Program-made: the position numbers and the translations under genes
Part shown: piece after piece, positions 48,626 through 50,401 of the stretch
Layout of the letters: every line of letters begins with the position of its first letter
How positions within the stretch are numbered: position 1 is the first letter of the stretch
DNA from: Marinobacter maroccanus
GTDB lineage: Bacteria; Pseudomonadota; Gammaproteobacteria; Pseudomonadales; Oleiphilaceae
Assembly (NCBI RefSeq): GCF_002933275.1
Contig: NZ_PSSX01000007.1
Span: forward strand, 62,001-126,000
Length of the DNA stretch: 64,000 bases
Direction: 5' to 3'
Notes under the pieces: generated by a model
Database searches by the model: none
The model's input: only the letters and a program-made list of their open reading frames with translations
Told to the model about the DNA's origin: nothing

Positions 48626-50401
48626 TCAGTTGCTGGCTACGCGATCACTAGGCAGCTTGAATGTCCAGACGGTACCACCCTGGTTGAAGTCCTTGACCAC
48701 CTTGGCCACTTCACCACCCCAGAGCGGAACCGCACCGCCCCAGCCGGTTGAAACCGAGACATACTGCTCACCGTCCATGGTCCAGGTCACCGGCGTGCCG
48801 ACAACGCCGGAACCGGTGTTGAAGCGGTAGAGCTCTTCCCCGGTCTTGGCGTCGAACGCCTTCAGGTAACCTTCCGGAGTGCCGGTGAATACCAGGTTGC
48901 CTGCGGTGGTCATCACGCCACCCCATAGCGGGGCCGGGTTCTCATAGCGCCAGACTTCTTCACCGGTTTTCGGATCCATGGCCCTCAACACACCAATATA
49001 CTCGTCGTTGGCCGGTTTGATGGTGAAGCCTGCCCCCAGAAACGCCGCGCCTTTCTTATAGGAAACTGGCTCGTTCCAGATATCCATGGACCATTCATTG
49101 GACGGCACATAGAACAGACCGGTGTCCTGGCTAAAGGCCATCGGCATCCAGTTCTTGCCACCCAGGAAGGCTGGCTGGGCCACGACCGTCTCGCCCTTGT
49201 TACCGTCGAGGTCCGCCGGGTTACCGGGACGCCCGCCATCAGTAAAGATCGGACGACCAGTCTCCGGATCCAGGCCTTCGGCCCAGGTGATCTTGTCCAC
49301 GAACGGGAAGCCACGAATGAAGTCGCCATTCTCCCGGTTCAGAACGTAGAAGAAACCGTTACGGTCGGCAGTCGCCGCGGCTTTGACGGTTTTGCCGTTC
49401 TCCTCGTAATCGAAGGAGATCAGCTCGTTGACGCCGTCATAATCCCAGCCATCGTTCGGGGTGGTCTGGAAGTGCCACTTGATACTGCCATCGTCCGGGT
49501 CGATCGCCAGACGGGATGACGAGAACAGGTTATCGCCGGGGCGCAGGTGCGAGTTCCAGGGCGCAGGGTTACCGGTACCGAAAAACAGGGAATCGGTATC
49601 CGGATCATAGGTGCCGCCCAGCCAGGTTGCTGCGCCGCCGTTCTTCCACATTTCGCCGGGCCAGGTTACCCCTGCCTTGCCGCCGGAAATGCCATTTTCG
49701 ACCTTCTTGCCATCCTTGTAGACATACCCCATATGGCCTTCGACGGTCGGCCGAGTCCAGACCAGATCGCCGGTGTTGGCGTCGTAGGCCTCAACCTTGC
49801 CGACAATACCGAATTCACCGCCTGAAACACCGGTAATAACCTTGCCCTTCACGACAATCGGTGCGGCAGTGATCGCATAGCCGGCCTGATAATCGGCCAC
49901 CTTCTTGATCCACATCGGCTTGCCGGTGTCCTTGTTCAGGGCAACCAGCTTGGCATCGAGTGTGCCGAAAATCACCTTGTCGCCGTAGATGGCAGCGCCA
50001 CGGTTCACCACGTCACAGCAAGGCATGATGCCGTCCGGCAGGCGGGCATCGTACTGCCAGATTTCCTCGCCAGTTCTGGCATCAATTGCGTAAATGCGTG
50101 AGTAGGAGGCGGTCACATACATGACGCCATCCTTGATCAGCGGCTGGGATTCCTGACCACGCTGCTTCTCGCCGCCGAAGGAGAATGCCCAGGCCGGCTG
50201 CAGATACTGAATGTTGCCGGTGTTCAGGTCTTCCAGAATGCTGTATCGCTGGCCTTGGGTGCCCATGCCATAGCTGACAATGTCTTCCGGGGTGTTGTGA
50301 TCGTTGATGATATCTTCGTCGGTTACCGCATGGGCCCCGTAGGAAACAGCCATAGCCAAGGCGCTGGCCGCAATGCGAATCCCGAACTTGTTGGTTCTCA
50401 T
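48626..50401 (-). CDS. exaA: PQQ-dependent alcohol dehydrogenase, lanthanide-type metal site
   Basis: The 591-residue periplasmic quinoprotein has a signal peptide (cleavage near AHA-VTD at 25) and eight beta-propeller W-motifs. It has the vicinal Cys pair C128-C129 (PCCDVVNRG) and probable metal ligands E196, N278 and catalytic D320. Two residues later stands D322 (WDYDGVNE), the extra Asp that marks XoxF, ExaF and PedH lanthanide enzymes; calcium enzymes have Ser, Thr or Ala there (ExaA has WDFSG from memory). It oxidises primary alcohols and aldehydes, feeding the cytochrome encoded 1.2 kb away. The ATG at 50401 has GGAGAG upstream. A class I box lies 130-156 bases upstream. Confidence 0.93.
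   Translation of the reverse strand: MRTNKFGIRIAASALAMAVSYGAHAVTDEDIINDHNTPEDIVSYGMGTQGQRYSILEDLNTGNIQYLQPAWAFSFGGEKQRGQESQPLIKDGVMYVTASYSRIYAIDARTGEEIWQYDARLPDGIMPCCDVVNRGAAIYGDKVIFGTLDAKLVALNKDTGKPMWIKKVADYQAGYAITAAPIVVKGKVITGVSGGEFGIVGKVEAYDANTGDLVWTRPTVEGHMGYVYKDGKKVENGISGGKAGVTWPGEMWKNGGAATWLGGTYDPDTDSLFFGTGNPAPWNSHLRPGDNLFSSSRLAIDPDDGSIKWHFQTTPNDGWDYDGVNELISFDYEENGKTVKAAATADRNGFFYVLNRENGDFIRGFPFVDKITWAEGLDPETGRPIFTDGGRPGNPADLDGNKGETVVAQPAFLGGKNWMPMAFSQDTGLFYVPSNEWSMDIWNEPVSYKKGAAFLGAGFTIKPANDEYIGVLRAMDPKTGEEVWRYENPAPLWGGVMTTAGNLVFTGTPEGYLKAFDAKTGEELYRFNTGSGVVGTPVTWTMDGEQYVSVSTGWGGAVPLWGGEVAKVVKDFNQGGTVWTFKLPSDRVASN

Follow-up and report, generated by a model that had tools for sequence, protein, structure and literature searches.

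A PedH-type enzyme with a predicted lanthanide requirement is the sole PQQ alcohol dehydrogenase found in a Marinobacter genome, and the calcium-enzyme cassette missing beside it comes and goes across the genus

The closest described counterpart of the locus reported here is the ped cluster of Pseudomonas putida KT2440, in which PedH (PP_2679; structures 6zcv and 6zcw) shares one cluster with pedF, pedG and pedA1A2BC and is paired with PedE under the control of PedS2/PedR2, the whole forming a rare-earth switch. In this species, as described in PMC6115532, PedS2 phosphorylates PedR2 when lanthanum is absent, so that pedE is activated and pedH repressed, and a second kinase acting on PedR2 has been inferred from the same work. 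The purified P. putida PedH was reported to be active only with lanthanides (PMC5487730), and in cells without PedA1A2BC the lanthanum required for growth by PedH is about 100-fold higher (PMC6839425). ExaF of Methylobacterium extorquens is grouped with PedH as PQQ-ADH type 2b in PMC11996626, according to which the lanthanide motif is present in 61% of 6,328 marine PQQ dehydrogenases, and one is found in 20% of 1,888 MAGs. PedH-type lanthanide PQQ dehydrogenases are thus already known from that source, as is the dominance of such enzymes in the ocean. Two further systems offer a comparison, namely the calcium ethanol dehydrogenases ExaA/PedE (1flg), of which ExaA of P. aeruginosa lies in a cluster that lacks PedA1A2BC according to PMC12997753, and the lanthanide methanol dehydrogenases XoxF (4mae, 6dam, 6oc5).

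The stretch of DNA analysed, hereafter the window, comprises 64,000 nucleotides of Marinobacter maroccanus and contains the following features relevant to PQQ-dependent alcohol oxidation:

23142..24305, minus strand: ErcA regulatory Fe-alcohol dehydrogenase-like protein (NF041833, 597.6 bits, cut-off 550)
26238..27401, minus strand: PqqE, PQQ synthesis (TIGR02109, 591 bits, cut-off 381.35)
27673..29354, minus strand: PqqC (27673-28428) and PqqB (28425-29354) (TIGR02111 and TIGR02108, both over cut-off)
29814..31334, minus strand: ExaC acetaldehyde dehydrogenase, predicted to catalyse the following step (NF050026, 966.9 bits, cut-off 900)
48626..50401, minus strand: PedH-type PQQ alcohol dehydrogenase (TIGR03075, 798 bits; alignments; PDB sequence and fold searches)
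50593..51549, minus strand: PedG-like periplasmic solute-binding protein (SBP_bac_3), named by position, as pedG in P. putida (PMC12997753, Table 1)
51639..52067, minus strand: PedF cytochrome c550, predicted electron acceptor (TIGR04494, 143.5 bits, cut-off 122)
52068..52327, no strand: junction, site of the pedS2-R2-D-E block in other genomes (260 bp, matching both flanks in genome G069)
52328..53500, plus strand: PedA1, substrate-binding protein of the predicted lanthanide importer (TIGR03863, 501.7 bits, cut-off 413.6)
53542..54516, plus strand: PedA2 beta-propeller protein (TIGR03866, 514.1 bits, cut-off 287.3)
54513..55235, plus strand: PedB ABC ATPase (TIGR03864, 341.6 bits, cut-off 302.25)
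55237..56043, plus strand: PedC ABC permease (TIGR03861, 429.9 bits, cut-off 241.35)
58981..59754, plus strand: LuxR-type response regulator in the AgmR/PedR1 position, named by position
59908..62250, minus strand: hybrid kinase of the NahK/ErcS family in the PedS1 position (NF041832, 567.4 bits, cut-off 400)
62147..63427, minus strand: NosP nitric-oxide sensor protein (NF041558, 580.7 bits, cut-off 450)

The pedG-like gene and pedF adjoin pedH, while pedA1, pedA2, pedB and pedC are divergent from them, and PedA1, PedA2, PedB, PedC and PedF all exceed the NCBI curated cut-offs. The island ends with NosP and the NahK/ErcS-family kinase, which also scores 1064.9 bits against NF041831, under the cut-off of 1500; the genes for PqqB, PqqC, PqqE, ExaC and ErcA lie about 17-25 kb away in the window. 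Gene order is that listed for P. putida PP_2663-PP_2679 in PMC12997753 (Table 1), except that pedS2, pedR2, pedD and pedE are missing from their places, as are the small genes PP_2666, PP_2677 and PP_2678. In content, the island corresponds to the P. putida ped cluster without pedS2-pedR2-pedD-pedE. The original prediction had taken the order of the genes for a copy of the calcium-type exa cluster of P. aeruginosa; this reading fails because PedA1A2BC, present here, is lacking in P. aeruginosa according to PMC12997753, and the absence of the pedS2/R2/D/E block also rules against it.

The pedH frame runs on the minus strand from an ATG at 50401 to 48626, with an upstream TTG extending it to 50416, and its product, predicted by homology to be periplasmic, measures 591 aa from the ATG and 596 aa in the longer frame. 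Its identity is 73% over 561 columns to P. putida PedH, 55% to the calcium enzyme ExaA, which has the same fold, and 32-37% to XoxF entries, making PedH its closest type, above ExaA and XoxF, in this comparison of identities. The two PedH structures (6zcv/6zcw) rank first in PDB searches both by sequence and by fold; assignment as a XoxF methanol dehydrogenase was rejected, since XoxF (34-37% identical in the fold search) is the best match in neither.

Counted from the ATG at 50401, the metal site consists of E196, N278, D320 and the extra D322 (201, 283, 325 and 327 in P0001 numbering), exactly the positions originally predicted, and P. putida PedH has the same four ligand positions and the same vicinal Cys pair. 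The motif region aligns without gaps between the window PedH TPNDGWDYDGVNE, P. putida PedH STPHDGWDFDGVNE, ExaA TPNDAWDFSGNNE and the 6dam XoxF TPHDEWDYDGINE, and the +2 position relative to the catalytic residue (D316 in ExaA) is occupied by Asp in PedH and XoxF and by Ser318 in ExaA. The residues E201, N283, D325, C133 and C134 (P0001 numbering) are invariant in an alignment of 26 rows (22 PedH, 4 PedE). The AlphaFold model (mean pLDDT 75.8) falls below 50 at residues 201-203, in the region of the Glu ligand, which is too low for geometry. With 73% identity to PedH and the additional Asp at exactly +2, the claim of a lanthanide-type active site is borne out, and homology to the lanthanide-only P. 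putida enzyme lends support to its corollary that the protein likely needs a rare-earth ion.

The alternation between Asp and Ser at +2, on which that claim was built, extends through the genus. The Asp motif pattern was found in 82 of 124 Marinobacter genomes, and Asp occupies +2 in 82/82 PedH proteins from the fetched islands (GAC in 38, GAT in 44), as opposed to Ser in the PedE/ExaA-type proteins of 46/46 genomes, PedH being told from PedE by overall similarity. The PedH genomes were first chosen by the Asp pattern, and a whole-protein search returned the same set of close relatives; the Asp is also present in the 80 named PedH loci (79 by motif, L054 by eye), which are the best 80 of 496 matches. 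A loose calcium-type pattern occurs in 56 of the 124 genomes, chance matches included, and the PedE count was taken as 46. The +2 Asp is not a matter of chance; the Ser in 46/46 PedE, against the Asp found here, also led us to reject an ExaA/PedE calcium-type assignment for the window enzyme.

We conclude with considerable confidence that this is a PedH-type PQQ alcohol dehydrogenase, the sole one found in this genome, with a need for light lanthanides (La, Ce, Pr, Nd) predicted from the extra Asp322 that its site has in common with lanthanide enzymes, in place of the Ser of calcium enzymes; a dependence of the window PedH on lanthanides is very likely on the strength of its sequence. In the periplasm, PQQ together with a trivalent lanthanide held at E196, N278, D320 and D322 would oxidise alcohols and aldehydes, and electrons would pass from PedH to the cytochrome PedF; the aldehyde would be further oxidised by ExaC, PQQ would be supplied by PqqB, PqqC and PqqE encoded in the same window, and the scarce metal would be imported by PedA1A2BC. 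Of this scheme, we infer the metal preference, the electron path and the specificity of the importer.

Searches with PF13360 and PF01011 found no second PQQ alcohol dehydrogenase in the window's genome, in which the only other PF13360 protein, of 407 aa, is presumably BamB. PedS2 was not found in the genome at E<=1e-40 (14 of 35 first-look candidates scored), nor were PedR2, PedD and PedE found in the island, to which the PedR2 search was confined. Of the components of the P. putida switch, the window therefore has only PedH, with neither the PedE partner nor the PedS2/PedR2 control.

The genome with the most similar PedH among the 124 (G069, 99%) carries, between pedA1 and pedF, a block coding for a histidine kinase with a HAMP domain, a LuxR-type regulator, a pentapeptide protein and a PedE-type enzyme (WDFSG), in the order pedS2-pedR2-pedD-pedE known from P. 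putida. Islands were fetched from 81 genomes with the Asp pattern and ten with PedE alone, 91 in all, the window constituting the 82nd PedH island. All four genes of the block are present in 36 of the 82 PedH genomes, none in 43 (window included) and pedS2 alone in one, while two islands are truncated at a contig edge (G086, G111). In the single-gene case (G083, locus L215), an open pedS2 frame lies between pedA1 and pedF without pedR2, pedD and pedE, and L042 is the same. In G050 (L219) and G065 (L218) the pedH match is in at least two separate pieces, as if by frame errors; both are counted among the 43, and both assemblies have 6% estimated contamination. Ten calcium-only Marinobacter islands (L134-L138, L143-L147) contain pedR2-pedD-pedE, with pedF in nine and the tenth at an edge; no pedS2, pedA1, pedA2, pedG or pedH was found in the up to 20 kb read of each, and pedB/pedC-like genes are present in three (G018, G020, G032). 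The remaining 32 of the 124 genomes yielded neither enzyme type in these searches, one of them (G087) giving a partial match.

Genome-wide searches for PedS2 in the genus (E<=1e-40, with at most 14 candidates scored in each) returned 39 of 124 genomes, namely the 36 with the complete block, G083, G111 and a weak 39% match in G087. An in-frame stop was flagged inside six of these 39 matches (G010, G022, G067, G085, G097, G123). PedS2 is thus present in 36/36 two-enzyme versus 1/54 single-enzyme genomes (44 lanthanide-only, 10 calcium-only; 2/56 if both edge genomes are counted), with a Fisher P of ~2e-24 uncorrected for relatedness. An order-level sample of 293 genomes, 281 of them outside the genus, was screened with exact-codon patterns, with which misses are expected, and with only six first-look PedS2 candidates scored per genome; outside the genus, PedS2 was found in 8/9 two-enzyme, 2/11 lanthanide-only and 1/1 calcium-only genomes (two-enzyme versus lanthanide-only, Fisher P 0.005), and as one weak match (30%) in a genome with neither enzyme. 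A cell with one enzyme needs no metal choice of the kind made by PedS2 in P. putida, and the distribution of PedS2 fits this expectation; the lack of a metal switch in the window's cell is presumably due to its having a single enzyme to operate. The calcium-only islands, with the regulator and without the kinase, do not contradict it, since a second PedR2 kinase has been inferred (PMC6115532). A k-mer comparison for loss of a PedR2 site from pedH promoters gave no clean signal, six of its 80 upstream pieces being mis-cut (~1.9 kb).

At the window junction, the first 91 bp (pedA1 side) and the last 141 bp (pedF side) of the 260 bp match the flanks of the occupied allele in G069, and the 43 empty alleles, 256-437 bp in length, each match occupied alleles on both sides. 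The pedF-side match starts 134-162 bp before pedF in 43/43, and the pedA1-side match extends to 89-97 bp in 25 alleles and to 102-185 bp in the other 18, different occupied alleles having been compared; the site of the block is therefore fixed to within ~100 bp but not to a single base position. In the window, each of the seven island genes compared is nearest to its counterpart in the occupied G069, and the 95 bp on its pedA1 side are nearest to an empty allele (G079, 96%), with 85% identity to G069 over 91 bp. These affinities suggest that the junction was exchanged by recombination. The nearest neighbour (n=80, 40 expected by chance) shares the block state in 64 cases for the pedA1 flank, 60 for pedA1, 58 for pedF, 56 for pedG, 54 for the pedF flank, 53 for pedA2, 52 each for pedC and pedH, and 49 for pedB. 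Block state is patchy, as the island trees (FastTree) need at least 20 changes for pedA1A2BC and at least 21 for pedFGH, against means of 26.8 and 26.7 and minima of 19 and 21, respectively, after shuffling, and a simple single loss of the block is not borne out by these trees.

Our tentative reading is that metal choice in marine alcohol oxidation works as a plug-in: a lanthanide-only core (importer, cytochrome, PedH) gains and loses, between pedA1 and pedF, a cassette of calcium enzyme plus sensor by recombination, so that lineages flip between obligate and dual-metal states and PedS2 is kept only with two enzymes. The block would most likely move in and out of the shared core by homologous recombination through its flanks, which is the weakest step: it agrees with the patchy distribution, but the nearest-neighbour tests are only moderate and the pedA1-side edge is not one fixed base. 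It is possible, though we find it doubtful, that the ancestral island had two enzymes and the empty state arose instead as pedS2-R2-D-E was deleted many times independently, as would accord with the two-enzyme order in P. putida and Halopseudomonas, the lone pedS2 in G083, the pedA1-side edge differing among empty alleles, and, over the 36 two-enzyme genomes, PedE distances that correlate with those of PedH at r of 0.75, against 0.76 for PedA2 distances with those of PedH. Because all 43 empty alleles share the pedF-side edge and at least 20-21 state changes are needed, however, exchange of an already existing empty allele seems a simpler route than about 20 deletions that are nearly identical. 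The opposite polarity would make the lanthanide-only core the ancestral state of marine Gammaproteobacteria, with later insertion of the calcium block between pedA1 and pedF; we consider this unlikely. Of 35 loci from other genera, 30 have pedA1 and pedH without the block in the fetched flank, as such an origin would have it, one (Halopseudomonas) is complete and four are partial or cut, and the 45 Marinobacter loci comprise 19 with the full block, 24 with none, one with pedS2 only and one cut; these loci, however, come from the best 80 of 496 PedH matches, which is no fair sample, and only the flank was searched. Furthermore, P. putida has the full order, and the lone pedS2 of G083 looks like a remnant of loss.

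Under the preferred assignment of the window enzyme as lanthanide-dependent, PedH being the sole PQQ alcohol dehydrogenase found and the island holding neither calcium enzyme nor switch, it is likely that the cell depends on rare-earth metals for this route of alcohol oxidation. The further suggestion that the whole island may be rare-earth dependent also gains support, in its conditional form, since the sole PQQ alcohol dehydrogenase found adjoins the PedA1A2BC homologues. Calcium could in principle be tolerated despite Asp322, either metal then being functional, and life in seawater with PedH alone would be readily explained, given calcium at ~10^-2 M and lanthanides at ~10^-11 M (PMC11996626). 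The +2 Asp by itself is no proof to the contrary, since the D-x-D motif also occurs in membrane glucose dehydrogenase, which can nevertheless complex Ca, Mg, Zn or Sr according to the same source. We nonetheless regard such tolerance as quite improbable, as the studied member of the PedH group is inactive without lanthanides (PMC5487730), a separate Ser-type enzyme is kept in 46 of the 124 Marinobacter genomes, 36 of them beside PedH, and the complete PedA1A2BC accompanies PedH in 80/80 islands free of contig-edge cuts, in contrast to the lack of pedA1 and pedA2 in the calcium-only islands as read. That the calcium enzyme is missing through a gap in the assembly, a draft of 61 contigs, is scarcely credible with an estimated completeness of 99.96%, pedF and pedA1 joined within one contig by 260 bp matching both flanks, and a compact junction (256-437 bp) in 42 other genomes.

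The genus-wide pattern in which the four-gene block between pedA1 and pedF comes or goes is new, and, while the enzyme itself belongs to a known kind, we found no printed account of the island variant that is lanthanide-only and switchless; a search of the open-licence PMC literature by title or abstract returned no paper on the Marinobacter island or cassette pattern. Seawater holds about a billion-fold less lanthanide than calcium (PMC11996626), and yet the lanthanide enzyme is the only one of the two types that was found here. Close relatives within Marinobacter differ in whether they carry the calcium cassette, the window PedH being 99% identical to that of Marinobacter sp. EhC06, and this natural comparison could be used to weigh the gains and costs of depending on rare earths, and to test PedS2 as the switch, beyond P. 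putida knock-outs.

Several other genes in and around the island deserve mention. Between the AgmR-like regulator and pedC lies a sulfonate/NMT1-type ABC transporter (ATPase, permease and binding protein, 56352-58982), in a place not so filled in P. putida and in some Marinobacter islands only. Beside pedH are genes for a TauC/TauB-like permease and ATPase (46932-48559) with no adjoining binding protein; about 9-10 kb away from them are a urea-type ABC binding protein (36937-38004; TIGR03427, 503 bits) and a biotin-dependent carboxylase of 1208 aa that has urea-carboxylase-like domains (33241-36867). A type III glutamine synthetase and a MetX-like hydrolase are located next to the island (44046-46590), the MetX-like protein being 73-81% identical to its relatives and its neighbours mostly ~90% or more.
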